Positions 2,232 through 27,891 of a DNA stretch of 64,000 nt are shown piece by piece. The DNA is from an uncultured Ignavibacteria bacterium. Lineage in GTDB: Bacteria > Bacteroidota > Ignavibacteria > SZUA-365. Within the stretch, counting starts at the first letter, position 1; each line of letters begins with the position of its first letter. The translations under genes and the position numbers were made by a program. Where the stretch lies: contig CAJXVM010000007.1 in assembly GCA_913061095.1 (NCBI GenBank), positions 124,001 through 188,000 of the forward strand, read 5' to 3'. The notes under the pieces were generated by a model, which was given only the letters and a program-made list of their open reading frames with translations, had not been told where the DNA came from and did no database searches.

Positions 2232-5200
2232 TTATTTGACCAGCACCATCTTGCGGGTCTGGATCTTGCCGGCCGTCTGCAGCGTGTAGAGATACGTGCC
2301 GCTGGGCAGGTTGTCGGCGGTCCAGGTCAGGTCGTAGCTTCCGGCTTCGCGCATGCCGTCGACGAGGACGTCCATGAGCTGACCGTACATGTTGTATACG
2401 GCGAGGCGCACGTGTCCGGCCTGCGGAACTGCGAAGCGGATGGTGGTTGAGGGATTGAACGGGTTGGGATAGTTCTGCTCCAGTTCCACCGTGGTCGGAA
2501 TGCGGGTGTCGAACGACTCCTGCACGCCAAGCACATCGGCAGTGGAAAGATAGCTCCAGCCATTGGCCCAGTTGTCGGTGCTGCTGAAAGCGCCAATGTA
2601 GGAGACCTGGCTGTAGAAGCCGTCGTTCGGGGGCATCGCGCCACTCTGCATGGCAGGACTGTCGCCGGCGGGACGCGGATCGAGTGCTCCGTTATTTGTG
2701 TGGCTGATGCTCATGAGCTTCGGATCGACGATCTGGTTGTTGTTCGCACCGAGATGCGTCTGCACGAAGTCCTGCGTGGCGATGTCTGCAATGGTGCTGC
2801 CGGCACCGAAGTTCCACCAGATATTGTTCACCAGCGCGAGCTCACCGGCCTCGAGACGGGCGCGGGAGTCCTCGCCACTGGCGAGATCCTCCACCTCAAC
2901 TCCGCTGCCAGCGAACTCGGTGAAGATACTGTTGTGGTACTTGCCGCCCGCATTGTCACGGAAGATCAGCGCGAGGTCGTTGTCGACGTTGACACTGTTC
3001 ATACCGCTGCCGATGTACGTAGCATTGTAAATGGTCGGCATGGCGTAGGGCATGCCGTCCTCGGGCGTGGTGCCGCCATCCTGCTCGGCGCCGCGGTTGC
3101 CGACTTCGTCACTCTGCAGCACGAACCAGAACTGGCCCTTGCCGCGGAAGCCTTCGTCGTAATCGAACGCATCGTCGCCGTTGAACGCGGAGATGAGATA
3201 CTTGCTGTTGACGGTGCCGCCGAACCACTCGAATCCGTCGTCGGCGTTGTTGACGACCTCGACATACTCGATCGTAGTGCCGGAGCCGACACCGGCCATG
3301 GTCAGACCGTTGATCTCGTTGCCTTCACCGATGTTCGTACCGCCGTAGCGGATGGACACGTAGCGGATGACACCGGAGTTGTCCGCATCGTCATTGCCGC
3401 CGTATGCGCCGCGCGGTTCGGTCGAGGGAATGCCCTCGATCTGGCCGACGCCGGTGGCAGTATTGATCTGCGCGTTGCCGAGCACGATCACGCCGCCCCA
3501 GAGGCCGCGGGTGTCGAAAGGAAGGTCGTTTGTGTTCTCGACGTCATCAGCCTCGGCGGTGAAGATGATCGGGTTTTCCTTCGTGCCGTTGGCGAAAATC
3601 TGTCCGCCCTGCGCAACGATGAGCGCACTGGCGTTCTCGGCCTGTCCCGGACGGCCCTTGATGACCGTACCCGGCTGAATGGTCAGGCTCTCGTCGTTCT
3701 CGACGAACACGAAACCGTTGAGGATGTAGGTGTTGCGTGCCGTCCACACGACGTCACCATCGATATCCTCATCGGAGACCTGAACGATTTCGGACTGCGG
3801 AATCGCGGCAACGCCGAGCTGGGAGAGGGCGGTCCAGCCGTCAATCCACATGTCAAACGGACCGAAGGCGCCGCGGTAGGTGACCTTGCTGAAGTAGTTG
3901 TCACCCTCGGGAGGGTCAACGGCGCCGGTGAGTGCTGGACTGCCGATTGCCGGACGCGGATCGAGTCCGGCATCGTTGGTGCGGCTGATGCCACGCAGCT
4001 GCGGATTGACGATTTCGTTGTTGTTGGCGCCGAGATGCGTCTGCACAAAATCCTGCGTGGCGATATCGGTGATGGCGCTGCCGGCACCGAAATTCCACCA
4101 CATGTTGTTGCTCATGACGAGGTCACCGGCCTCGAGACGGGCACGGGAGTCCTCGCCACTGGCGAGATCCTCCACCTCGACGCCATTGCCGGCGAAATCG
4201 GTGAAGATACTGTTGACATACTTCCCACCGGCATTATCGCGGAAAATCATGGCAAGGTCGTTGTCGGCGTTGACACTGTTCATACCGCTGCCGATGTATG
4301 TCACATTATAAATCTGCGGTGTCGCATATGGTGTACCGTCTTCCGGCGTGGTGCCACCGTCCTGCTCGGCGCCACGGTTGCCGACTTCGTCGGACTGAAT
4401 GGCGAACCAGAACTGGCCCTTGCCGCGGAAACCTTCATCGTAATCGAACGCGTCGTCACCGTTAAAGGCGGAGACGAGGTATTTCGTGTTGGCGGTGCCG
4501 CCGAACCACTCGAATCCGTCATCGGCGTTGTTCATTACCTCTACGTACTCGATGCGGGTGCCGGATCCGACACCGGCCATCGTAAGCCCGTTGATCTCGT
4601 TGCCTTCACCGATGTTCGTGCCGCCGTAGCGGATGGACACGTAGCGGAAGACACCTGAGTTGTCCTCATCGTCGTTGCCGCCATATGCGCCACGCGGCTC
4701 GGTCGAGGGGATGCCCTCGATCTGTCCGACGCCGGTCGCGGTGTTGATCGTCGACTTGCCGAGCATGATCACGCCACCCCAGAGGCCGCGCGTATCGAGC
4801 GGAAGGTCGTTGGGATTGTTTACATCGTCGGCTTCCGCCGTAAAGATGATAGGCTTCGCGGGTGTACCTTCTGCGTAAATTTTACCCCCCTGCGCCACGA
4901 TCAGCGCGCTGGCATTCTCGGCCTGTCCCGGACGGCCCTTGATGACCGTGCCTGGCTCGATGGTCAGCATTTCGCCATTTTCGACGAACACAAAACCGTT
5001 CAGAATATAGGTCTTGTCGGACGTCCAGGTGACGCTCCCGTCGATGTCTTCGTCGGTGATCTGTACGATCTCGGACTGCGGCTCGGCAACGATACCATAG
5101 TCGGAGATGGCAGTCCAGCCGTAAATCCAGAGATCGCTCGGGCCAAAGGCACCAAGATAGGTCACTTTGGTGAAGAACACATCGTCGGGCGGATCCATGG

Positions 5201-6407
5201 CGCCGGTGAGTGCGGGGCTGCCCGATCCCGGACGGGGGTCGAGTCCCATGTCATTGGTGCGGCTGATGCCGCGCAGCATCGGATCGGCGATCGAGTTGTT
5301 GTTGGCACCGAGATGCGTCTGCACGAAATCCTGCGTGGCAATGTCGGTGATGGCGCTGCCGGCACCGAAGTTCCACCACAGGTTGGTATTCAGAACGAGT
5401 TCACCGGCCTCGAGACGGGCGCGGGAGTCCTCGCCGCTGGCGAGATCCTCGACCTCGATACCGCTGCCGGCAAATTCCGTGAAAATGCTGTTGTAGTACT
5501 TGCCGCCGGCATTGTCACGGAAAATCATGGCGAGGTCGTTATCGACGTTCTCGCTGTCCATTCCGCTGCCGATGTATGTGACATTATAGATGTTCGGCAT
5601 GGCGTACGGCATGCCGTCCTCAGGCGTCGTACCGCCGTCCTGCTCGGCGCCGCGGTTGCCGACTTCGTCGGACTGGATGACGAACCAGAACTGTCCGTTT
5701 CCGCGGAAACCTTCATCGTAGTCGAAAGCATCGTCTCCGTTGAAGGCAGAGACGAGGTACTTGCAGTTGGCGGTGCCGCCGAACCATTCGAAACCGTCAT
5801 CGGCATTGTTGAAGACCTCCACATACTCGATGCGGGTCTTGCTGCCGACCGCGGCCATCGTCAGACCGTTGATCTCGTTGCCTTCGCCGATATTTGTGCC
5901 GCCGTAACGGATCGACACGTAGCGGAATACACCCGAGTCATCTTCGTCATCGTTTCCGCCGTAGGCGCCGCGGGGTTCGGTCGAGGGGATGCCCTCGATC
6001 TGTCCCTCGCCGGTCGCAGTGTTGATCGTCGCCTTTCCAAGCAGGATGACACCGCCCCAGAGGCCGCGGGTGTCCAGCGGAAGGTTGCCGTTGAGCTGGT
6101 CTGCTTCGGCAGTGAAGATGATGGGATTGGCGGGAGTGCCGTTGGCGAAGATTTTCCCGCCGCGCGCCACGATCAGCGCGGTGGCGTTTTCGGCCTGTCC
6201 CGGCTTGCCCTTGATCACGGTGCCGGGTTCGATGGTCAGGGACTCGCCGTCCTCGACGAATACGAATCCGTCAAGAACGTATGTGTTGTTTGCGGTCCAG
6301 GTCACGTCGCCGTTGATATCGGCGTCGGTGATGTTCACGACGTTCTGCGCGAACAGTCCGGATGCCGTCATCAGGAAGACGAACACGGTCAGCAATGTTC
6401 TCAGCAT
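2232..6407 (-). CDS. Very large secreted protein with three near-identical ~425-residue repeats and a T9SS C-terminal sorting domain
   Basis: 1391 codons from the ATG at 6407, chosen because GGAG lies about 7 nt upstream; an ATG at 6419 is the alternative. A signal peptide ends near GLFAQ. Three copies of one domain follow, spaced about 1.28 kb. Each starts with ITDxDIxG and contains LTIEPGTVIKG (LTIQ in the third), GLWGGVI, IPSTEPRGAYGG and FNGDDAFDYDEGF, a pattern that suggests parallel beta-helix coils. The last ~80 residues are a Por/T9SS sorting domain (NYPNPFNPST, then LPSGTYLYTL and RKMVLVK). The protein is therefore probably exported through T9SS and anchored at the cell surface. It lies 33 nt downstream of the TonB receptor gene, so it may bind or process that receptor's ligand. 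The ligand is unknown. Confidence 0.9.
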   Translation of the reverse strand: MLRTLLTVFVFLMTASGLFAQNVVNITDADINGDVTWTANNTYVLDGFVFVEDGESLTIEPGTVIKGKPGQAENATALIVARGGKIFANGTPANPIIFTAEADQLNGNLPLDTRGLWGGVILLGKATINTATGEGQIEGIPSTEPRGAYGGNDDEDDSGVFRYVSIRYGGTNIGEGNEINGLTMAAVGSKTRIEYVEVFNNADDGFEWFGGTANCKYLVSAFNGDDAFDYDEGFRGNGQFWFVIQSDEVGNRGAEQDGGTTPEDGMPYAMPNIYNVTYIGSGMDSENVDNDLAMIFRDNAGGKYYNSIFTEFAGSGIEVEDLASGEDSRARLEAGELVLNTNLWWNFGAGSAITDIATQDFVQTHLGANNNSIADPMLRGISRTNDMGLDPRPGSGSPALTGAMDPPDDVFFTKVTYLGAFGPSDLWIYGWTAISDYGIVAEPQSEIVQITDEDIDGSVTWTSDKTYILNGFVFVENGEMLTIEPGTVIKGRPGQAENASALIVAQGGKIYAEGTPAKPIIFTAEADDVNNPNDLPLDTRGLWGGVIMLGKSTINTATGVGQIEGIPSTEPRGAYGGNDDEDNSGVFRYVSIRYGGTNIGEGNEINGLTMAGVGSGTRIEYVEVMNNADDGFEWFGGTANTKYLVSAFNGDDAFDYDEGFRGKGQFWFAIQSDEVGNRGAEQDGGTTPEDGTPYATPQIYNVTYIGSGMNSVNADNDLAMIFRDNAGGKYVNSIFTDFAGNGVEVEDLASGEDSRARLEAGDLVMSNNMWWNFGAGSAITDIATQDFVQTHLGANNNEIVNPQLRGISRTNDAGLDPRPAIGSPALTGAVDPPEGDNYFSKVTYRGAFGPFDMWIDGWTALSQLGVAAIPQSEIVQVSDEDIDGDVVWTARNTYILNGFVFVENDESLTIQPGTVIKGRPGQAENASALIVAQGGQIFANGTKENPIIFTAEADDVENTNDLPFDTRGLWGGVIVLGNAQINTATGVGQIEGIPSTEPRGAYGGNDDADNSGVIRYVSIRYGGTNIGEGNEINGLTMAGVGSGTTIEYVEVVNNADDGFEWFGGTVNSKYLISAFNGDDAFDYDEGFRGKGQFWFVLQSDEVGNRGAEQDGGTTPEDGMPYAMPTIYNATYIGSGMNSVNVDNDLALIFRDNAGGKYHNSIFTEFAGSGVEVEDLASGEDSRARLEAGELALVNNIWWNFGAGSTIADIATQDFVQTHLGANNNQIVDPKLMSISHTNNGALDPRPAGDSPAMQSGAMPPNDGFYSQVSYIGAFSSTDNWANGWSYLSTADVLGVQESFDTRIPTTVELEQNYPNPFNPSTTIRFAVPQAGHVRLAVYNMYGQLMDVLVDGMREAGSYDLTWTADNLPSGTYLYTLQTAGKIQTRKMVLVK

Positions 6408-6440
6408 GAAATGCTCCATAGATTGATAAAACGGGTGATT

Positions 6441-9311
6441 TTACTCAAATGTGTAACTGATGCCGAATGAGAAATCACGCCCCGTGTTGAACCGCGAGTA
6501 AATGTAGTCCGTGCCCTCGAAATGATGGACGTGCTCCACCGCTTCATTGAGCAGGTTCTTCGCGGCGAATTTCGCGGAGAACCCTCCGAACAGCTTCTGC
6601 GAGAGGATCAGATCGAGCATCCCGCGAGGCTGTTCGTAGACGTTCGGCGTCCCACCCAGCGACACGGCAGAGAGGCGTTCGCCGAACACGTTGTAGTACA
6701 CGCTGACGGACGTGCCCATGTCATAGTTCTGATATGCGAAGTTGACATTGAACAGGTACGGCGACTGCCCCTGCAGTTCGCGCGTGCCGTCGACGTAGGG
6801 ATTCACCGCGCGGATCACCTCCAGCTCGTCGGCGGAGATGTCAACCACGGAGGCGGTATATGTGAAATTGGCGCCAACATAGAAGTAGTTCAGGAAGCTG
6901 GCGATTTCATCGAGACGCTTGCGGAATTCCAGCTCGAAGCCGTAGACCTCGGCTTCCGAGACATTCTGGTATTCAATCTCGCCGTTCACGTTTTTGATGA
7001 CGCGCTCGATGGGATTCTGGAAAAGCTTGTAGAATCCGCTGACAGCGAGAATTTCACCCGGACGCACGAACCACTCCCAGCGGAGGTCGTAGTTGTCGAT
7101 CAGGGTGCGTTCGAGTTCCGCGTTCCCGATGAACGTGAAGTCGTTGACGAAGTTGAATGACGCGTACGGGGCAAGCTCACGGAAGGTCGGACGCGCGAGC
7201 GTCTTGCCGTAGGCGGCGCGGACGTTCATTCGATCGGAGACATTGTACAGAAGGTTGAACGACGGCAGGAAATCCTGGTTGTCGAGATTGCCTCGTGTCA
7301 GCGAGGTGTCCATGCTGGCGACATCCATCTCCGTCGTCTCGTAGCGGGCACCGGTGATCAGGCGGAAGTCGTTGAAAATCGGAAGATCCACCATGACGTA
7401 TCCGGCGTAGATATCCTGCGTGCCGTCGTAATTGTTGGACAGCGACGTCGCGTCGATCACGTAATTTCCGAAGCGATAGAACATCTCCGTGCTCTCTTCG
7501 GGAAGAATGCCCACGTTGGAGGCCGAAAAGAAATCGTCGGCGTTGCCGTCGTAGGAAATGCGGTCCTGCCCGAAATCGAAGCGGCGCTCGCGGAAGCTGC
7601 GCTCCTTGTTGAGCCAGGCTCCGCCGAACTTGACCTTCGAAGCAAGTCCGTTCCACTGCGCGAACGGCATTTCGAGATCGATATTGAAGGAATTGTTGTC
7701 CTCCGCAAGGTTGCGATAGTAACGCGCGGGGATGGGATAGATCGACGGGCGGATCGTGTAAATCGTATCCACGTTGTCGTTACGCTCACGAATCGTATAG
7801 TTGTTCGTGAAGTAGCGAACATCCGGCTCATCCTGCGTATTGCTCGACACCGATCCGATCCACTCGACATTCAGTCCGCCCAGCGCCTCGAAATGATGCT
7901 TGCCGCGCAGCTGGTAGGTCTGCAGCTCGCGTTCGATGTAATGCAGGTTTCGCGTTTCGTAAATCGCATTGCCGGTCAGGTCACGCGGGAACGTCCCCGC
8001 CAGGTAGCGGGCCGTGTTGTCGGCCGCACGATTATAAATGACGTTGAAGCCCATCTCGTGCGCCTGTCCGAGCTTGTACGAGAGGTTCATCAGACCGCCC
8101 CAGAGCACTTCGTCCGAGCCTTTCTGGTCGGTGAACAGGTAGTCGTTGGTCAGCTCATCCACGTCGTCGACATGGCCGGTGAGCTGATAGCGGCCGACGG
8201 TACCATCGGTATAGAGGGAATACTTGCGGCTGTACGTCAGGCTGCCGAGGAAGCCGAAGGGCTGTCCGAGCAGGTCGACCTGGTTGCCGAAGGACATCGA
8301 GTAGCTCTGATTGATCGGCGCGGAGCCGCGACGCGGGGCCATGACGCTGTTGAAGGATTTCGACAGCTCATCGAGCTGCTGCGCTTTCTCCTGATCGGTA
8401 AACGCGAAGCTCAGGTCGGGGATTTCCACATTGGGATCCTGCAGGGCCGCGGGAATCTCGCGCGTGCCATCGTCGAAGCCGAGCCAGTCGGTTCCGCCAC
8501 CCGCGTAAGTCAGGAATTCATTGCTGCCCGTGGTCTGCGAATTCCATGAGGTGGATGTCGACAGAGAGAGCGAGAACTTGTCCGGGAAGGACTTCGTGGA
8601 AATGTTCACGCTGCCGCCGGTGTAGTTGCCGGGCTTGTCGGGCGTGAACGTCTTCGTGGTGACGAGATTCTCGAGGAAACTCGCCGGGAAGAGATCCAGC
8701 TGCACCGCGCGGCGGTTGGGATCCGCGCTCGGCACTTCGGCACCGTTAAGCTGCGTGGAAGTGTAGCGCTCACCGAGTCCGCGGATGTAAATATACTTGC
8801 CGTCCACCGTGGAGGCGCCGGTCACCTTGTTCATGGCGGCGGCGGCATCACCGGAGCCAGAGCGGGAGATATCTTCCGCACTGATGGCGTCGCTGATGGA
8901 GGTGGCCTTCTGCCGGTCCTTGAGCAGGCCGGCTTCGTTGTTCGTGAGCAGTTTCGCCTCGATGACGACCTCGTCCATTTCGAAGGCTTCCGGGGCGAGC
9001 GTCAGGTCCAGTTTCGTCGTTTCCCCCGCCTTCACCACAACGCCAGTGACCGTCTTTTTGGTGTAGCCGATCATGGATGCGTGAAGGGTGTATGTTCCGG
9101 GGGGAACCGGTTCGATGGTGAAATTCCCATCGATGTCGGCGGCGGCGCCGAGCGACATGCCGTCAAGAATGACATTGGCACCGATCAGGCCTTCGCCGTT
9201 TGCTGCGTCAACCAACTTTCCTCTGATCTTACCGGTGTCCTGGGAGGAAACACTCGGAGCGAAAAGGAGGTGGAGGGAAAGAATGGCGGTAAGAAGAAGT
9301 GTGGTACGCAT
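6441..9311 (-). CDS. TonB-dependent outer-membrane receptor
   Basis: 956 codons. A signal peptide (1-24) is followed by a carboxypeptidase-regulatory-like beta-sandwich (about 28-108; GANVILDG, DGNFTIEPVPPGTYTL). A TonB-box-like DEVVIEA lies at 113-119. The plug domain has YIYIRGLGERYTSTQLNG and GGSVNISTKSFP, and the beta-barrel runs to the C-terminus (FSFGISYTFE). The YIRGLGERY plug signature resembles receptors usually called TonB-dependent receptors of undefined substrate in Bacteroidota and Proteobacteria. It is the first gene of a two-gene operon with the triple-repeat secreted protein. The upstream region carries 11-bp periodic TTA repeats of the kind bound by PhoB/OmpR-type regulators, so phosphate or phospho-ester uptake is possible but unproven. 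Confidence 0.95.
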   Translation of the reverse strand: MRTTLLLTAILSLHLLFAPSVSSQDTGKIRGKLVDAANGEGLIGANVILDGMSLGAAADIDGNFTIEPVPPGTYTLHASMIGYTKKTVTGVVVKAGETTKLDLTLAPEAFEMDEVVIEAKLLTNNEAGLLKDRQKATSISDAISAEDISRSGSGDAAAAMNKVTGASTVDGKYIYIRGLGERYTSTQLNGAEVPSADPNRRAVQLDLFPASFLENLVTTKTFTPDKPGNYTGGSVNISTKSFPDKFSLSLSTSTSWNSQTTGSNEFLTYAGGGTDWLGFDDGTREIPAALQDPNVEIPDLSFAFTDQEKAQQLDELSKSFNSVMAPRRGSAPINQSYSMSFGNQVDLLGQPFGFLGSLTYSRKYSLYTDGTVGRYQLTGHVDDVDELTNDYLFTDQKGSDEVLWGGLMNLSYKLGQAHEMGFNVIYNRAADNTARYLAGTFPRDLTGNAIYETRNLHYIERELQTYQLRGKHHFEALGGLNVEWIGSVSSNTQDEPDVRYFTNNYTIRERNDNVDTIYTIRPSIYPIPARYYRNLAEDNNSFNIDLEMPFAQWNGLASKVKFGGAWLNKERSFRERRFDFGQDRISYDGNADDFFSASNVGILPEESTEMFYRFGNYVIDATSLSNNYDGTQDIYAGYVMVDLPIFNDFRLITGARYETTEMDVASMDTSLTRGNLDNQDFLPSFNLLYNVSDRMNVRAAYGKTLARPTFRELAPYASFNFVNDFTFIGNAELERTLIDNYDLRWEWFVRPGEILAVSGFYKLFQNPIERVIKNVNGEIEYQNVSEAEVYGFELEFRKRLDEIASFLNYFYVGANFTYTASVVDISADELEVIRAVNPYVDGTRELQGQSPYLFNVNFAYQNYDMGTSVSVYYNVFGERLSAVSLGGTPNVYEQPRGMLDLILSQKLFGGFSAKFAAKNLLNEAVEHVHHFEGTDYIYSRFNTGRDFSFGISYTFE

Positions 9312-18999: not shown

Positions 19000-20220
19000 T
19001 CAGATATTCAGGTCGTTCACCTGTCCGATAAACAGAATTGTGTTTGAGTGCCGTTCGTGAATCAGGAAAATGAACGGACGGTTGACACGCATGACCGGCG
19101 GAACAGAGGTCAGTCCCACTTCAACCGATGTCGCGGCCGCTGCCTCGGTACCTTCCTCGTTCACCTCGACAAAGGTCTTGTGCTTGACGCGACTGATGAA
19201 GAGATCTCCGGCGGGATTGATCCCCGTGAAATCCGCGCGTCCGCCTTCGAAGGCAATGCCCATGCCCATCGTGGTGAGGATGTCCTTCAATCCCACTTCG
19301 TATTCGAGCGTGAACCTGGGTAGTTCCAGCGTCATGTCAGTGTCGACCAGTTTCTCGAGCTGACCGTCCCAGTCCTCTGACAGTGTTTCAACGGTCTCGG
19401 CGAGCGAGCGTTCTCCGCGCGGCAGGATCACGGCCATGCTGTAGCGGTCCCAGCCGTACGGCAGGTCGACCATTTCGAGGCGCTCGTCGACGTAATGCCG
19501 CATGTTGCCATCCCGCGTCATCATGGGAACCGTCTGCTTCGCGCCGGAGCGGGCAGTGAAGGTGCCGTCGTGCGTATCCTCCGGATCGAACTGCGCTGTC
19601 CAGCTGCCCTTGAAATACACCGCGTTGATGAGGTAGAGCATCACCTCGGGCGGAATGGGCGGATCAACGATCTCGGGGATGCGGCTCTCTGTCGCATTGC
19701 TCACCCAGTCATTGATGACGTTCACCGACTGCGGATCATTGAAATCGAGGGACTGCACTTCCGCGCCGAAATACTTCACGTTCGTATCGATGAACTCCTG
19801 GAGGATTGGATAGCCTTCCCTTCCCCAGATCGAGTTGGCGATGCGCAGGGTCACCCGCGGATCCGTATCGCGAAGCAGTTCGATGAGTCCCTGAAAGGCC
19901 TCGTTGATCTCCTGTTCGGAAAGGCCCTGCAGTTCCAGCGCATCTTTCATGGCGGCGCGCGTTTCACCGGCAGCGCCGTTCAGCGTCATGCCGAGCGCCA
20001 TCGAGACACTCAGCGGCGAGATGAACACGTTGTTCCCGGGTTCGGCCGTGATGGTCTGCCGGAACAGCGAGAAGGAAAAATCGGTGTTGCTGCGTGCCAC
20101 CGTTTTCTCGGCCTCGGTCAGGGAACGAAGCGGCGTCGGCTGCTCGGGACCGGCGCCGTCGTCGGAACAGGAAGCGAGGACGAATGCGGCGGCAAGAGAG
20201 AGAATGAGCAGATGTTTCAT
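19000..20220 (-). CDS. Lipoprotein serpin (serine protease inhibitor)
   Basis: 406 codons. A lipoprotein signal (LASC, Cys17) anchors it in the envelope. The serpin fold is clear: NVFISPLSVSMALGMTLNGA near the N-terminus, VYFKGSWTAQFDPEDT, and the C-terminal NRPFIFLIHERHSNTILFIGQV. The reactive-centre hinge EEGTEAAAAT keeps the small residues needed for loop insertion, so it should inhibit by the suicide mechanism rather than be a non-inhibitory member. The P1 position falls near GLTS, suggesting a target with small or aliphatic preference. It may guard the envelope against the cell's own or foreign proteases. Confidence 0.93.
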   Translation of the reverse strand: MKHLLILSLAAAFVLASCSDDGAGPEQPTPLRSLTEAEKTVARSNTDFSFSLFRQTITAEPGNNVFISPLSVSMALGMTLNGAAGETRAAMKDALELQGLSEQEINEAFQGLIELLRDTDPRVTLRIANSIWGREGYPILQEFIDTNVKYFGAEVQSLDFNDPQSVNVINDWVSNATESRIPEIVDPPIPPEVMLYLINAVYFKGSWTAQFDPEDTHDGTFTARSGAKQTVPMMTRDGNMRHYVDERLEMVDLPYGWDRYSMAVILPRGERSLAETVETLSEDWDGQLEKLVDTDMTLELPRFTLEYEVGLKDILTTMGMGIAFEGGRADFTGINPAGDLFISRVKHKTFVEVNEEGTEAAAATSVEVGLTSVPPVMRVNRPFIFLIHERHSNTILFIGQVNDLNI

Positions 20221-20259: not shown

Positions 20260-21741
20260 TCAGAATCCGATCGCCACGCCGAATGTGAAATTGAGCTTGC
20301 TCGTGTAATATGCCATATCCTCTACCGAATAGCGAAGGAGTCCGCCTTCGATGCCGACATTGAGCATGGAAAAATTCGACGGGAACATTTCGAGCCCGAT
20401 ACGCACCTTGCCGAGCGGTCCCAGCCGGGTCGCTCCGACGAAACTGCGCATATAGGGATAGACGACGCCGAACATGCCGTACTCGGGCAGGGACAGCTTC
20501 CAGACTGCGCCGAATAGGTCGAGCATGCGGTTTTCGCGCACTTCACGCATCATCATGGTTTCAGGAGGATCAAAGAGCTCCTGCACGGATGCATCCGTGT
20601 ATCGGGTGGCGGCGGGATCATAATCCTGATAGGAGCGGCCAAAACCCTCCCGTCCGTATTCGAAGCCGAACGCGTGATGTTCCGTCACCTTGTAGACAGC
20701 GCTGAGGGCCATGTTTTCGAACACATTGTGTGAACTGTGCGGCTGATCCACTTCGGGAAAAGACTGTCCGTAATACTTCCGCAGCTCGAAGACGAGATTG
20801 GAAAGAATGTTCGCACGGGGTCCGGGACGGAAGAAGTGCCACTCCCCGCTGCCGTCGCCGGGTTCTTTCATGACCGGTTCGATGTCGGCGAGATCCATCA
20901 GCCGCTCCATGGGATTCGCGCCGGTGACCTGTTCACCGGTGAAGGCGGCCGCGCCTCGCGGGTCGGGAAGAGAGAGCACGGCGGCGTAATCGGTTTGTCC
21001 CGGCGGGGAGACGTGCATCTCCGCGGCGGAGATCGCCGAAGCAGTGTTGTCGGTGGATTCGGTCGCAGAGGAGCGTTCGCTCGCCGTGGAAACTGCCGGT
21101 GCCGAGGTCGCGTCCGCATATTTCTGTCCGAGACTGCCGCCGTCTTCGACGCTCTCCTTCTGGCCGGTGCCGGCACGTAATGAGGATGATCCGGCGTCAG
21201 CGATGGCCGATCGCGGAGATGCCTGCGGGTTCGCAATCGCCGGAGCCTGTCCGCGCCCGTTCACTGCTGCCGGTTCACTGCCGGACAGTGGATTCACGGT
21301 CTCCGCAGCATCCCGAACGGACTCCGTTCCGGGCATTCGCGGATCCTGTTTCACGGCACCGGTCTCCGTAATGGTTTCGCTGATACCGAAGATCAGCAGT
21401 GCCGTCACGGCTGCAGAGCCGAGCGCTGTATATATATAGCGGCGCTTTTTGGCGATCTGCGTACGCAGTCCCACAGCCAGCGCGCCGATTTTCTGACGAA
21501 GTCCGCCCGCGGGGACATGTTCAGGAGGAGTAAGACCAAGATCGACGAACAACTGCTGAGACACATGCGACGGCGTTGTTATCGTGGCCACATCCTCCTG
21601 AATCATTGAATGCAGCTTCAGATGCTGCAGAAATTCCCCGCGCAGATCGGGATCGACGGCCATGCGTTCAAAGAGGACATCTTCGAGCGACTCATCGAGG
21701 CCTTCGTCGAAAAATCTGTGAAGTAATTCCGTGTGCTGCAT
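20260..21741 (-). CDS. Membrane-anchored anti-sigma-like protein with C-terminal outer-membrane-barrel-like domain
   Basis: 493 codons. Residues 1-100 are a cytosolic helical domain (VLFERMAVDPDLRGEFLQHL) that resembles the N-terminus of the protein at 25451-26419. A single hydrophobic segment spans about 102-121. A ~190-residue Ser/Ala/Thr-rich linker follows. From about 310 to the end there are alternating aromatic/polar strands (HHAFGFEYGREGF, KVRIGLEMF) ending in VAIGF, a terminal Phe as in outer-membrane barrels. The gene lies 50 nt after an ECF sigma gene on the same strand, so an anti-sigma role is inferred. Having both an inner-membrane helix and an outer-membrane-type C-terminus in one chain is unusual. 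Confidence 0.75.
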   Translation of the reverse strand: MQHTELLHRFFDEGLDESLEDVLFERMAVDPDLRGEFLQHLKLHSMIQEDVATITTPSHVSQQLFVDLGLTPPEHVPAGGLRQKIGALAVGLRTQIAKKRRYIYTALGSAAVTALLIFGISETITETGAVKQDPRMPGTESVRDAAETVNPLSGSEPAAVNGRGQAPAIANPQASPRSAIADAGSSSLRAGTGQKESVEDGGSLGQKYADATSAPAVSTASERSSATESTDNTASAISAAEMHVSPPGQTDYAAVLSLPDPRGAAAFTGEQVTGANPMERLMDLADIEPVMKEPGDGSGEWHFFRPGPRANILSNLVFELRKYYGQSFPEVDQPHSSHNVFENMALSAVYKVTEHHAFGFEYGREGFGRSYQDYDPAATRYTDASVQELFDPPETMMMREVRENRMLDLFGAVWKLSLPEYGMFGVVYPYMRSFVGATRLGPLGKVRIGLEMFPSNFSMLNVGIEGGLLRYSVEDMAYYTSKLNFTFGVAIGF

Positions 21742-21791
21742 GATTTGAAAATTCTATGCTGTATGTATTTCGTTGCTGCCGGGAAACATAT

Positions 21792-22355
21792 CTATCGAAT
21801 AAGATCACTGATGTATGGTTGCAGAATATCTTTCACCTGGTCTTTCGCGCGCATGACACGCACCTTCAGCGAGGAGACCGAGTCACCGGTAATTTCCGCG
21901 ATCTGTTTGTATGACAACCCCTGGTAGAATCGAAGGATGAACGCCTCCCGGTAGGGCACATCAAGAAGCTCGAGAGCGGAGCTGATCATGTTGAGTAATT
22001 CCTCACGCTCATACATCGGCGCCCGGTCGGCAATCTGCTCATCCTCGAATGGCGTCCAGTAAATCCTGTTCCTCCGTGTGTTCAGAAACGTATTCCGCGC
22101 GCTGGTCAGCAGATAGGCGAGGATATTGCTGACATGCTCATCCTCCTTCTGCGACTGGCGGTAGAATTTCGTGAACGTCTCCTGGAATATGTCATTCGCA
22201 TCGTCCGGACTGCCTGTCAGGCGAAGGCAGAACATATAGACCTTTCTCTCGTATCGCGAAAACAGTTCGCGAAACGCGGCATCCTTTTCCTTGCCACTGC
22301 GCTTGAAGGCGTTGAAAAGCTGCTCGTCTGTATATCTGCTGTAATCCTCGGGCAT
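21792..22355 (-). CDS. RNA polymerase sigma factor, ECF subfamily (locus 1)
   Basis: 187 codons. Sigma region 2 contains FRELFSRYERKVYMFCLRLTGSPDDANDIFQETF, listed here by its ends only at residues about 27-62. Region 4 (about 120-180) has the helix-turn-helix LPYREAFILRFYQ-type segment with LSYKQIAEITGDS and SSLKVRVMRAK. It directs core polymerase to stress or envelope promoters. The barrel-bearing anti-sigma-like gene follows in the same operon. A good ECF-type promoter (TGGAAC, 16 nt, CGTA) sits just upstream, suggesting that the factor transcribes its own operon. Confidence 0.95.
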   Translation of the reverse strand: MPEDYSRYTDEQLFNAFKRSGKEKDAAFRELFSRYERKVYMFCLRLTGSPDDANDIFQETFTKFYRQSQKEDEHVSNILAYLLTSARNTFLNTRRNRIYWTPFEDEQIADRAPMYEREELLNMISSALELLDVPYREAFILRFYQGLSYKQIAEITGDSVSSLKVRVMRAKDQVKDILQPYISDLIR

Positions 22356-22368
22356 ACGCGCCGGAGTG

Positions 22369-22394
22369 TACGAAAAATAGCCGCCGTTGTTCCA
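22369..22394 (-). promoter_or_regulatory. ECF-type promoter upstream of the locus-1 sigma gene
   Basis: On the minus strand TGGAAC (22394-22389) and CGTA (22372-22369) are separated by exactly 16 nt, one base from the TGAAAC-N16-CGTA pattern of sigma-W-type promoters. Transcription would start only 5-9 nt before the ATG at 22355, so the mRNA would have a very short leader. Autoregulation is inferred. Confidence 0.5.
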
Positions 22395-22435
22395 GCGGAT
22401 TCTGCATATGTTAAGACACCGGAGTGACGATGGGG

Positions 22436-23044
22436 TTACAAGGCCAAGCCCACTCCATCAAAAAAGCGGTTCAGGGAGGATGGATCAAGGACAATCGTCA
22501 GCACCAGGCCCGACAGCGCGCCATAGAGATGGACATCATGTCCGACATTCCCCCAGTTTTTTCGCGCTCCGAGAATGCTGACGACGATGAAAATGACCGC
22601 GAACAGAGGCCATGGAAGCGGAATCGGAAGGAACAGGAGCATGATCTTGGCCGTCGGGAAATACAGCATGCCGGAGAAGAACAGGGCCGAGACCGCTCCC
22701 GATGCCCCGAGAGCACGGTATTCCGCGTCATTTCGATGCCGAAAGAGCGGAGGGACCGCAGCAAGGATCATGGAACCAAGATATATGACCAGGAAGCGCG
22801 CCGTACCCGCAACTGCTTCGACGTACATCGAAACAGAATACAGGGCTATCAGATTGAAGAGAAGATGCATCAGGTCGGCATGGATGAAGCCGTATGTCAG
22901 AATGCGCTCATACTGATTTCCACGGAATACCTTCCACGGAAACAACAGAAATCGATCAGCAACCGCATTCTTTCGGAATGCCAGCGCGCTCGCTCCGATG
23001 GTAAGAATCAGGATTCCCAGGGATGCCGGGGCGTGCGTGATCAT
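22436..23044 (-). CDS. Rhomboid-family intramembrane serine protease
   Basis: 202 codons from the ATG at 23044; the frame is open further up but overlaps the redoxin gene. Six hydrophobic segments are seen. Catalytic features are complete: HLLFN (His60, Asn64), the GASGA loop with nucleophile Ser115, and the HLYG histidine (His172) in the last helix. The protein cleaves transmembrane helices within the inner membrane. It is the last gene of a four-gene minus-strand operon (DUF192, HMA lipoprotein, redoxin, rhomboid), 19 nt after the redoxin stop. It lacks an extra N-terminal or C-terminal domain. Confidence 0.9.
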   Translation of the reverse strand: MITHAPASLGILILTIGASALAFRKNAVADRFLLFPWKVFRGNQYERILTYGFIHADLMHLLFNLIALYSVSMYVEAVAGTARFLVIYLGSMILAAVPPLFRHRNDAEYRALGASGAVSALFFSGMLYFPTAKIMLLFLPIPLPWPLFAVIFIVVSILGARKNWGNVGHDVHLYGALSGLVLTIVLDPSSLNRFFDGVGLAL

Positions 23045-23063
23045 GAACTGCAGCTGCGAGGAG

Positions 23064-23738
23064 TCATTCACGCAATGAATTCCCTGCGATGGATTCGGCA
23101 CGCGTGATCGCGCATCCAAGTGACATTTTTTCGCGGTGACGGAGCGCGCGGCCGGAGAGCAGCGTATCCAGAGCCAGGCGGAGAGATTCCTCCTCCACGA
23201 AAAACCCGCTCTTGTCATCATCGATGCGTCCGTGATACTGCAGCGTCCATGCGCGATCGAACACAAATACTTCCGGCGTGACCGTCGCCTGCATCAAGTC
23301 GGCTGCGGCGGTCAGATCGTCGCGATAGACCGGCAGAGGATACTCCTCCCGCTGAATATACTGCGTCATGCCATCCATGGTCTCATCACTGTTGGAATGA
23401 ACAGCGATGAAGCGCACGCCGCGCGGTGCGAAATGCTGGCGGAGTTCCCGGAGGCGGTCGACGTATCCGTCAGAGCAGGGACAGCGATAGGAACAGAAAA
23501 TGACCGTGGTTAATGCGTCGCCGGCGAGGTCGTGCAGCATGACCGGGCGACGATCCATGCTGGTCAGCGCCACGTTCCCGAGCGTATCGCCGAAAAGCGG
23601 AGAAATCTCGGACGCCGCGTCATCTTCGCAGACCAGCGGGGATTCCGGAATCTCCGCATCCTCATTGCCGCCGACCGTCAGCGCAACGACCGCGAGTGCC
23701 ACCATGGCGAGGCCGAACAGCGCAATACGGGGAGCCAT
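23064..23738 (-). CDS. Membrane-anchored redoxin (thioredoxin-fold, peroxiredoxin/SCO-like)
   Basis: 224 codons from the ATG at 23738 (AGGA just upstream); a GTG at 23756 that overlaps the preceding stop (GTGA) is an alternative. An N-terminal hydrophobic anchor (about 4-24) puts the domain in the periplasm. The thioredoxin fold has TVIFCSYRCPCSDGYVDRL with cysteines in a CxxxCxC pattern instead of plain CxxC, and the cis-Pro loop TVTPEVFVFD. This resembles redoxins of the AhpC/TSA superfamily. Beside an exported HMA protein, a role in envelope thiol or copper chemistry is plausible but inferred. Confidence 0.85.
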   Translation of the reverse strand: MAPRIALFGLAMVALAVVALTVGGNEDAEIPESPLVCEDDAASEISPLFGDTLGNVALTSMDRRPVMLHDLAGDALTTVIFCSYRCPCSDGYVDRLRELRQHFAPRGVRFIAVHSNSDETMDGMTQYIQREEYPLPVYRDDLTAAADLMQATVTPEVFVFDRAWTLQYHGRIDDDKSGFFVEEESLRLALDTLLSGRALRHREKMSLGCAITRAESIAGNSLRE

Positions 23739-24945: not shown

Positions 24946-25464
24946 ATGACTGAACGCGAACGGCGAGAGCGTTTCAACGAGCTGTACACGCTGTATGACC
25001 GGCGCGTGTTTGCCTATTGCGTCTATGTCACCAGTGATCGCGACATCGCGCATGATGTCTATCAGGAGGTGTTCGTCAAAGCGTTTCAGGCGATGCACAC
25101 GCTGAAGGATCCTGAGAAGCAGGCGCACTGGCTGTTCCGTATCGCCCGCAACGAGTGCCTCAATGCAATGAAGGCGCGGCAGCGCAGTGAGAAGCGCAGC
25201 GTCGATATCGATCACGTGTACGACCAACTGCAGCATGAAATCCTCCCTGAACAGCATGATGAAATCGCGCACCTCCGCAGAGCCATCGCGCAGCTGCCGC
25301 AGGATTACCGCGAAGCCCTGCTGCTCGCGGAGTTCGAGGGATTTTCGCTCAAGGAAATCGCGAACATGACGGGGGCATCGCTGTCGAACGTTAAGGTCCG
25401 GATTCACCGGGCAAAACTGAAATTGCATGCAATTCTGGAACCGATACTGAATGACTATGAATGA
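24946..25464 (+). CDS. RNA polymerase sigma factor, ECF subfamily (locus 2)
   Basis: 172 codons. Region 2 (about 8-75) has YDRRVFAYCVYVTSDRDIA and the DVYQEVFVKAFQ core-binding helix. Region 4 (about 105-165) has LPQDYREALLLAEFEG, FSLKEIANMTGAS and SNVKVRIHRAK. The stop overlaps the start of the anti-sigma-like gene by 14 nt, so the two are translationally coupled, the usual arrangement for a sigma factor and its regulator. Confidence 0.95.
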   Translation: MTERERRERFNELYTLYDRRVFAYCVYVTSDRDIAHDVYQEVFVKAFQAMHTLKDPEKQAHWLFRIARNECLNAMKARQRSEKRSVDIDHVYDQLQHEILPEQHDEIAHLRRAIAQLPQDYREALLLAEFEGFSLKEIANMTGASLSNVKVRIHRAKLKLHAILEPILNDYE

Positions 25465-26419
25465 GCGCATCCAGGAACTGATCACCGTCTACCTGCACCG
25501 GGGAAGCACTCCCGCACAGGAGCGGGAGCTGTTCGAGGCCTGTAAAAACGATCCCGAGGTCGCCGAACATCTCCGCCAGCATCTGATCCTCTCTCTGAAG
25601 CTTCGTCGTCTGCGCGATGATATCACGGTGGAGGACACGCTGCACGCCGCCGTTTCGCGGCGCATTTCCCGCCTCGCGGAAAAAGACGCGGCCGTGCCAT
25701 CTGCCGTGGAAGCACCGAGGGCAACAGGGACCGCACACGCTACCGGGATCGCCAACGCTGCCGGGATCGCCGACGCTGCCGCGCCACCGCGCCGCTACGG
25801 TCTTCGTCACGTTTTCGGCAGCGCCGTCGCCACTGCGGCCGCCGCCCTGCTGCTCTTCCTGTTCCTTCCCGATGGAGGCAACACCCCGCCGGCCCAGCGC
25901 GCTGAAATGCGGCCAGCGGCCGACACGGTGCTCGTTGTGCAGCGGGATACCGTGCTGCAGGTGCGGGAAGTCGAGCGTCCAGTGTATATTGTCAGGACGG
26001 AGCGGGTCAATGAAAGCGATCAGACGGCAGGCGATGGCGGGTACGCCGCATCAGCGGACAATGCCGCAGGCGCTGATGCCGCCGGACAGACGGGAACACC
26101 TCCGGCTGATCAGCCTTCCGAACTGATTGACGCACCACTGCCGCAGAGCACCGCTCCGGATACACCAGCACTGACTGATCGCAGCCGACACGACTCTGCC
26201 GGCGATGACGTCGAAGGCGTGTATCCTTCGGAGACGGATCAGACCGAGCAGCATTCCGCGGCAGCAACAACTGACCGTTCGCAGCTGTATGCGGATGCCG
26301 GTGATCCGACACAGCAGGCACGCGCCGAAAAGGCCCGGAATTATCTCGAACAGTACAATGCCATGCTCGTATCCGTCGAATCCGTTCAGCTTACTCGTGA
26401 GGACCGCGTCACGTACTGA
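25451..26419 (+). CDS. Membrane-anchored anti-sigma-like protein (locus 2)
   Basis: 322 codons; the ATG at 25457 is an alternative start. Residues 1-80 form a helical cytosolic domain (LFEACKNDPEVAEHLRQHL) matching the N-terminus of the locus-1 protein at 20260-21741. An Ala-rich stretch with an 18-bp tandem repeat comes next. One transmembrane helix lies at about 120-139, and a ~180-residue periplasmic low-complexity tail follows (Ala, Asp, Gln, Thr rich). It overlaps the sigma gene by 14 nt and is followed 2 nt later by the barrel protein. An anti-sigma role is inferred from context; no zinc-binding HxxxCxxC motif is present. Confidence 0.8.
   Translation: MTMNERIQELITVYLHRGSTPAQERELFEACKNDPEVAEHLRQHLILSLKLRRLRDDITVEDTLHAAVSRRISRLAEKDAAVPSAVEAPRATGTAHATGIANAAGIADAAAPPRRYGLRHVFGSAVATAAAALLLFLFLPDGGNTPPAQRAEMRPAADTVLVVQRDTVLQVREVERPVYIVRTERVNESDQTAGDGGYAASADNAAGADAAGQTGTPPADQPSELIDAPLPQSTAPDTPALTDRSRHDSAGDDVEGVYPSETDQTEQHSAAATTDRSQLYADAGDPTQQARAEKARNYLEQYNAMLVSVESVQLTREDRVTY
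25721..25774 (+). repeat. Three 18-bp tandem repeats inside the locus-2 anti-sigma-like gene
   Basis: Three imperfect 18-bp units start at 25721, 25739 and 25757 and encode ATGTAH, ATGIAN and AAGIAD. They lie between the cytosolic domain and the transmembrane helix, so copy-number change would alter linker length without a frameshift. Confidence 0.75.
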
Positions 26420-26421
26420 TC

Positions 26422-27891
26422 ATGCTGCAAGCAGCCCGCATACTGACAATCATGATCGCACTGATCGCCACCGCAGTCACGGCGGGAGCGCAGGACGTCA
26501 CGTCCTATACCATTCGCGGCGGAGAGGAGGATGTGTTCGAGCGTGAGGTCGCCGCGGCACGGGCGCGCACTACACTGGATGCATCACTTCCCGGGCTCGG
26601 CTGCACGGTCGAGTACATCCGCCGCCTCGGGGGCGAGGAAATCGTGTACCGCCGTGGTCCGATCGACCTTCATGTCACGCAGCAGCCCGATATCTCCGAT
26701 CGTCAGGAGCGGGGCACCCGTCCGGCTTCCGAAGATGACAGACTGACTCCGCATTTTTACGGCGGCATTCTCGTTGATCTTCCCCGTCCGGGAGAAAGCG
26801 CCCAGCCCGTGCCGATGCTGCCGGAGCGCTATCGGTACATGCTGCGCCTGGCACTTGTCCCGCAGCACTATGAGGATGCGACGCTCCATGCGGTCATTCT
26901 TCTCGAACGCGCCGTCGTTGAAGAAGACGGCGATGAACTGACACTGCATCGTGGGGAGTTGTTCACGCGCAGCGTGGAACTGAACGGGAATCTGCCGCTC
27001 AAGTTTGATCTGCCGGAATGGGATTCGCGGCTGCCGAACGGTGTTCATGCCGTGCCGCCAAATCTGCGCGAAGGGGTGCTCGTGACGCTCGAGACGCCGC
27101 ATGCATTCAGTCTGCCCGGCAGTTATCCCGATCCGTTCCGCAGCGCGGCACTTCTGACGTACGCCGTGCCACGTACCAGTTCGGTGCGCCTCACCATCAC
27201 GGTGGCCGGCGAGGAGCGCGTGATCGACCAGGGCAGGCGACAGCCTGGAACCTACGAAGTGGTATGGGACGCGGAGTCGCTCCCCGACGACAGTTACACC
27301 GCGGTGCTGACGGCAACGAACGATGAGGGCGCTCGCCTCTTTCGCACCGAACGCACGCTCGTGAAAAGCCGCAATGCGGAACCGTTCAGACCGGAACAGT
27401 TTTCCATGTTCCGTCGCGATATCTCGGGACATGTTGTCATCGGTACGGAGAGCGGGATCGGGTTCCAGATACCGGTGGACGATTCGAAGGCACTGCGGAA
27501 CATGTTCACACATATCGCCTTCCGGGTGGGATATCGCCTCAGCCCATCATGGGAAATCGGTGTGCTTGCAGGGCAGGATGCCTTCCATGAGAGTCCCGGA
27601 TCGGAGGTCGATGTGGATCGAATCAGCAATTACGGCGGCGTGGTCGCATATACGTACGGCTATCTCGGTCCCTACCTGCGCTGGATGCCGGGCCATGCCT
27701 TCCTGCAGCCGGTATTACAGGTGTCCGCCGCCTGGAGCGACGCGGCGATGGTCGCGGAGACCGCAGTGGGACTCAAAGCGGAAATCTTCCGCAACGTCGA
27801 GTTGTATGCCGCACCGGCGGCGTTCTTCCATCTGCGCAGCAGCGTCAGTACGAAACTCGGGATTCATTACGGACTGACGATGCGATTCTGA
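26422..27891 (+). CDS. Exported protein with internal sorting-domain-like fold and C-terminal outer-membrane-barrel-like domain
   Basis: 489 codons. A signal peptide ends at about 24 (TAGAQ). Residues 25-230 are a beta-rich domain I do not recognise. Residues about 234-315 resemble a T9SS sorting or FlgD-like Ig domain (YPDPFRSAALLTYAVP, then QPGTYEVVWDAESLP), but it is internal. From about 335 to the end there are barrel-like strands (WEIGVLAGQDAF, YLGPYLRWM) ending in LTMRF. This C-terminal part resembles the end of the locus-1 protein. It starts 2 nt after the anti-sigma-like gene, so it probably belongs to the same signalling unit, perhaps as its outer-membrane sensor. Confidence 0.75.
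   Translation: MLQAARILTIMIALIATAVTAGAQDVTSYTIRGGEEDVFEREVAAARARTTLDASLPGLGCTVEYIRRLGGEEIVYRRGPIDLHVTQQPDISDRQERGTRPASEDDRLTPHFYGGILVDLPRPGESAQPVPMLPERYRYMLRLALVPQHYEDATLHAVILLERAVVEEDGDELTLHRGELFTRSVELNGNLPLKFDLPEWDSRLPNGVHAVPPNLREGVLVTLETPHAFSLPGSYPDPFRSAALLTYAVPRTSSVRLTITVAGEERVIDQGRRQPGTYEVVWDAESLPDDSYTAVLTATNDEGARLFRTERTLVKSRNAEPFRPEQFSMFRRDISGHVVIGTESGIGFQIPVDDSKALRNMFTHIAFRVGYRLSPSWEIGVLAGQDAFHESPGSEVDVDRISNYGGVVAYTYGYLGPYLRWMPGHAFLQPVLQVSAAWSDAAMVAETAVGLKAEIFRNVELYAAPAAFFHLRSSVSTKLGIHYGLTMRF

Follow-up and report, generated by a model that had tools for sequence, protein, structure and literature searches.

A predicted anti-sigma factor with a tethered outer-membrane-type barrel is paired with an ECF sigma factor in an uncultured Ignavibacteria bacterium

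Analysis of the window, a stretch of 64,000 nucleotides from an uncultured Ignavibacteria bacterium, indicated that an ECF sigma factor gene is followed by the gene for a 493-aa protein which very probably has a two-membrane anti-sigma build. The protein would be a class I anti-sigma factor anchored in the inner membrane and continued by a flexible tether into an eight-stranded outer-membrane barrel. The original prediction of an ECF sigma gene followed by an anti-sigma-like gene with a fused barrel-like domain was borne out, since both genes are real, lie on the minus strand (21792-22355 and 20260-21741) and are 50 bp apart. The two genes and the parts of the 493-aa protein are as follows.

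21792..22355, minus strand: 187-aa ECF sigma factor (Sigma70_r2 and Sigma70_r4_2 in Pfam, TIGR02937; orthologues lie 5' of the anti-sigma gene)
20260..21741, minus strand: putative anti-sigma factor, 493 aa (AlphaFold2 model, fold searches, family alignment)
21541..21741, minus strand: predicted four-helix anti-sigma domain, residues 1-67 (model of the N-domain, Foldseek, profile search)
21382..21438, minus strand: predicted inner-membrane helix, residues 102-120 (hydropathy scan; helix 100-126 in the model)
20839..21363, minus strand: Ala/Ser/Gly-rich disordered tether, predicted periplasmic, residues 127-301 (low pLDDT, linker survey)
20263..20796, minus strand: predicted eight-stranded outer-membrane-type beta-barrel, residues 316-493, ending in Phe (model, Foldseek)

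The sigma factor of the window consists of regions 2 and 4 only, the composition that defines an ECF sigma factor (Pfam, TIGR02937). The 493-aa protein gave no family match in Pfam and NCBIfam searches, and the order of parts claimed for it was recovered: an N-domain, one helix (102-120), a disordered linker, an all-beta C-terminus and a final Phe. The AlphaFold2 models of the full-length protein and of the N-domain alone placed N-terminal helices at residues 3-12, 17-29, 31-53/54 and 58-67, the N-domain modelled separately having a mean pLDDT of 71. The best four Foldseek matches of this domain were RsiW and MucA in sigma complexes (RsiW probability 0.98), and ranks 1-3 of its sequence profile against the PDB were RsiW, RseA and DdvA; the E-values are weak in both searches (0.34 for the anti-sigma fold in Foldseek and 0.036 for the profile), and the assignment is based on match rank and context, not on E-values. 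Weak Pfam-type matches among 36 family members were to zf-HC2 (20/36) and RseA_N (9/36). The four modelled helices fit a class I anti-sigma domain (ASDI), in which a bundle of three is joined by a fourth clamping the sigma factor; the clamp itself is putative in the window protein. The zinc motif HxxxCxxC of the ASDI zinc subgroup is absent from the window protein, which has no Cys in residues 1-80, and Cys is present in just 4 of the 49 fused-family members.

The AlphaFold2 model of the 493-aa protein, built from 24 sequences, showed pLDDT values mainly below 50 over residues 126-301, about 180 disordered residues with a linker composition of 17% Ala, 12% Ser and 10% Gly. Linker length ranged from 97 to 251 residues in all 49 complete members, so that the minimum is 97. 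With some 0.35 nm for each residue, an extended stretch of 97 spans about 34 nm, which exceeds a typical periplasm. The C-terminus, which the original prediction had proposed to examine by modelling, was predicted as a confident eight-stranded barrel and not as a soluble periplasmic domain; its strands lie between residues 316 and 492, and several 10-residue blocks have pLDDT values of 94-98. Nearly all matches of the C-domain in the PDB (Foldseek) were outer-membrane barrels, with NspA first and OmpA, OprF and Ail also found, and the final residue is Phe in 36 of the 49 complete fused-family members. Structure prediction and fold searches thereby support the idea that one chain spans both membranes, as do conservation and a linker of at least 97 residues in 49/49 members. 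A difficulty for this build is that a single chain must be anchored in the inner membrane and also be inserted into the outer one.

Relatives of the fused family were found in 24 of 61 close genomes. Started from an alignment, in the manner of the profile search proposed for other proteins joining these parts, the search recovered relatives from up to 103 genomes out of 245 in the class of the window's organism, in several copies each; the stronger of these matches are mostly full-length and some weak ones are to the N-domain only. Given this recurrence in the class, the fused architecture is far from chance. The family alignment revealed that the N-domain and the C-domain are conserved and the intervening stretch is not, and an ECF sigma ORF lies immediately 5' of the anti-sigma gene in every locus whose flank is available. 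Matches in the rest of the phylum are to the N-domain alone, mainly within short proteins, and a plasmid search gave no match. Further sigma/anti-sigma pairs of the same genome are located on contigs C14, C1, C5 and C2, the C2 pair being the most distant. A protein at L027:1501-2577 (plus strand) joins the same N-terminal anti-sigma domain to another C-terminus, ending in ...MTQDAGATWKLIK, which may form a propeller or repeats in place of the barrel. Contig C4 of the same genome carries at about 56.9 kb (L093) an ECF sigma gene followed by that of a single-TM 430-aa protein, the C-terminus of which resembles a secretion sorting domain and not a barrel.

A second ECF locus of the window (24946-27891) carries related parts in separate genes.

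24946..25464, plus strand: ECF sigma factor of the split locus (Pfam; conserved)
25451..26419, plus strand: putative split anti-sigma factor, 322 aa, with a related N-domain, TM helix 118-136 and a tether, barrel-less (profile-profile comparison)
26422..27891, plus strand: predicted secreted protein, 489 aa, with a related barrel at the C-terminus (profile-profile comparison; signal-peptide-like start)

Profile-profile comparison with the fused family gave 96.3% for the N-domain of the split anti-sigma and 97.2% for the barrel of the split locus. By these values both halves are related to the fused protein, and the locus carries its modules as two genes, an arrangement that is newly found. The order sigma, anti-sigma, barrel is intact in 11 genomes, including that of the window. 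The split anti-sigma retains a conserved SVQL...DR tail, for example SVQLTREDRVTY or SVQLTAKDRVSN, a possible docking element for the barrel protein. Only a few kilobases separate the fused locus from the split one, and the two offer a natural comparison for the role of the covalent tether.

The fused pair is itself flanked by two further genes and is preceded by a conserved promoter element.

19000..20220, minus strand: serpin lipoprotein, 406 aa (Pfam Serpin, E 8e-114)
22436..23104, minus strand: rhomboid intramembrane protease, 5' of the sigma gene (Pfam Rhomboid, E 1.5e-23)
22414..22440, minus strand: predicted ECF-type promoter TGTAACC-N14-GTGTCT (conserved 5' of the sigma genes in orthologues)

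The gene order rhomboid, sigma, anti-sigma, serpin is conserved across orthologous loci. The serpin gene lies directly 3' of the orthologous anti-sigma gene in 7 genomes; in one record (L003) it adjoins the barrel end, which is all that precedes it there. The rhomboid gene lies 5' in those orthologous loci whose flank extends far enough, with the exception of genome G005, where it is downstream and no serpin gene is adjacent. The serpin, seen as a partner in this orthologue group only, is a probable operon partner of the ECF pair. The cassette serpins share a lipobox-like start and the conserved hinge EEGTEAAAxTS, which we take to be typical of inhibitory serpins, so that the cassette serpin is presumably of the inhibitory type. 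By alignment with alpha-1-antitrypsin, P1-P1' is presumably Thr-Ser in the window and Val-Ser in genome G008, and these residues suggest elastase-like proteases as targets. Cleavage of the anti-sigma by the cassette rhomboid is only a possibility, because rhomboids mostly cleave helices of the opposite orientation. Two neighbouring large ORFs of the window (2232-6419 and 6441-9311, minus strand; 1395 and 956 aa) have secretion-signal-like starts.

Autoregulation of the sigma gene had been proposed from the motif TGGAAC-N16-CGTA (22369-22394). This motif is present but unconserved in orthologues, with 0.3 chance occurrences expected per window, and was rejected as the promoter of the locus because it is not common to the orthologous upstream regions. 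Autoregulation as such is likely, through the conserved element TGTAACC-N14-GTGTCT, which matches once in the window against 0.05 expected and falls just beyond the span (20260-22394) that the original prediction covered. The paralogue group on contig C14 carries the variant TGTAACC-N14-GTGTTA. A genome scan for the conserved pattern gave 9 sites against 2 control matches; the remaining sites adjoin a few secreted-protein genes and are too few for defining a regulon. The conserved promoter, the conserved rhomboid-sigma-anti-sigma-serpin cassette and the split second locus are new here.

The two-membrane build has been known in gut Bacteroides since 2024 (PMC13088901, citing 10.1073/pnas.2321910121). 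The earlier view, that a regulator of this architecture had yet to be characterised, is outdated, because Dma1 and Dma2 of Bacteroides thetaiotaomicron share the four-part order, are encoded next to ECF21 sigma genes and are functional in that organism (PMC13088901). The same source states that the build is restricted to Bacteroidota and gives glycan sensing at the outer-membrane surface as its authors' hypothesis for Dma2. The window protein is predicted to follow the part order by which PMC13088901 defines the build: a sigma-binding N-domain, one TM helix, a long disordered tether and a C-terminal barrel, with the ECF sigma gene adjacent.

For comparison, Dma-type loci of Bacteroidales were located through NigD and ECF genes (in L139, for example, NigD is divergent from the sigma gene). 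We infer from build and NigD neighbourhood, rather than through BT_1558 itself, that their products are Dma proteins. Profile-profile comparison of the window family with the Dma-type proteins gave a probability of 1.9% for the N-domain; for the barrel it was 30.4%, with the profiles aligned out of register. A Dma-type query gave no match in the genome of the window or in its class. In most Dma-type proteins the TM helix follows after some 45-70 residues, in the window family after about 100; the Dma-type barrel belongs to Pfam OMP_b-brl/OMP_b-brl_2, whereas the 493-aa protein has no Pfam match. NigD is the neighbour of the former, and serpin and rhomboid flank the window locus; the window family, unlike the Dma type, also has a split two-gene form. 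In the sigma tree the partners of the two families formed separate clades, with a joint clade not recovered and not rejected (p-AU 0.38). Since no sequence relation to Dma-type proteins is detectable, the window family appears to be a separate variant of the same kind, and its fusion possibly arose independently. The two-membrane build would then not be limited to Bacteroides, and a second, apparently unrelated family carries it in several copies per genome. A 547-aa Bacteroidales protein (L154:1498-3141, minus strand) begins with a sigma domain, followed by a TM helix (174-192) and a Dma-type barrel, the layout described for Dma3.

The explanation that best fits the locus as a whole, and which is probably correct, is that of a tethered-barrel anti-sigma factor whose sigma factor is released to induce its own operon and the serpin. 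The 493-aa protein would bind its partner ECF sigma and keep it inactive at the inner membrane. The trigger would act at the outer end and could be a ligand or damage at the inserted barrel, failed assembly of the barrel, or a protease cutting the exposed tether. Such an event would lead to proteolysis of the anti-sigma, and the freed sigma would transcribe its own operon from TGTAACC-N14-GTGTCT, the downstream lipoprotein serpin with it; the serpin cassette is in this way a concrete candidate output of the switch. That the signal is a protease or damage, with the serpin as the response, is a tentative reading. The fuller version, a class I domain fused independently of Dma and beside an unfused form, with the fused serpin cassette as a protease alarm, is quite doubtful; here an attacker would cut the tether or the barrel loops, the sigma would be freed and the matching surface serpin produced.

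A general envelope-stress sensor is possible, if somewhat improbable. An unassembled barrel would be cut in the periplasm and the sigma freed, much as misfolded porins lead to cleavage of RseA, and the serpin would be one among several envelope genes. The RseA/RsiW-like N-domain agrees with this reading, as does the C-terminal Phe of most members, which fits barrels assembled by BAM, but the multiple paralogues with diverged barrels argue for specific inputs and the serpin partner is confined to this orthologue group. Rather unlikely is recognition of a particular ligand at the surface, for instance a glycan or a peptide, by the barrel, with tension in the tether as the signal, as proposed for Dma2: the divergent barrels of the paralogues and the build shared with Dma2, for which glycan sensing is hypothesised (PMC13088901), would suit such a role, but no uptake genes adjoin the cassette and its neighbours are protease-related. 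Very unlikely is a soluble periplasmic beta domain at the C-terminus of an ordinary inner-membrane anti-sigma with a periplasmic sensor, which is consistent with strand alternation being only partly significant (on its own in strands 5 and 8 alone) but is opposed by the high-confidence barrel model, the fold matches almost all to membrane barrels, the aromatic C-terminus and the separate secretion predicted for the split-locus homologue with the same barrel.

The predicted tethered-barrel anti-sigma factor resembles the class I anti-sigmas RseA, RsiW and MucA in the fold of its N-domain and in its single-pass inner-membrane anchor, but in these the chain stops with a domain in the periplasm or outside the cell, whereas the window protein runs on into a predicted outer-membrane barrel. 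The FecR domain is absent from the window locus (Pfam, NCBIfam) and the barrel has 8 predicted strands, so that the locus is not of the FecR type; FecA is a separate 22-stranded TonB-dependent transporter, whereas the window barrel is 8-stranded and fused. The barrel of the split locus is separate like FecA but has no recognised plug or TonB parts. In FecI-FecR-FecA, too, an anti-sigma of the inner membrane relays the signal of an outer-membrane barrel to the ECF sigma, and the split second locus would follow a similar logic.
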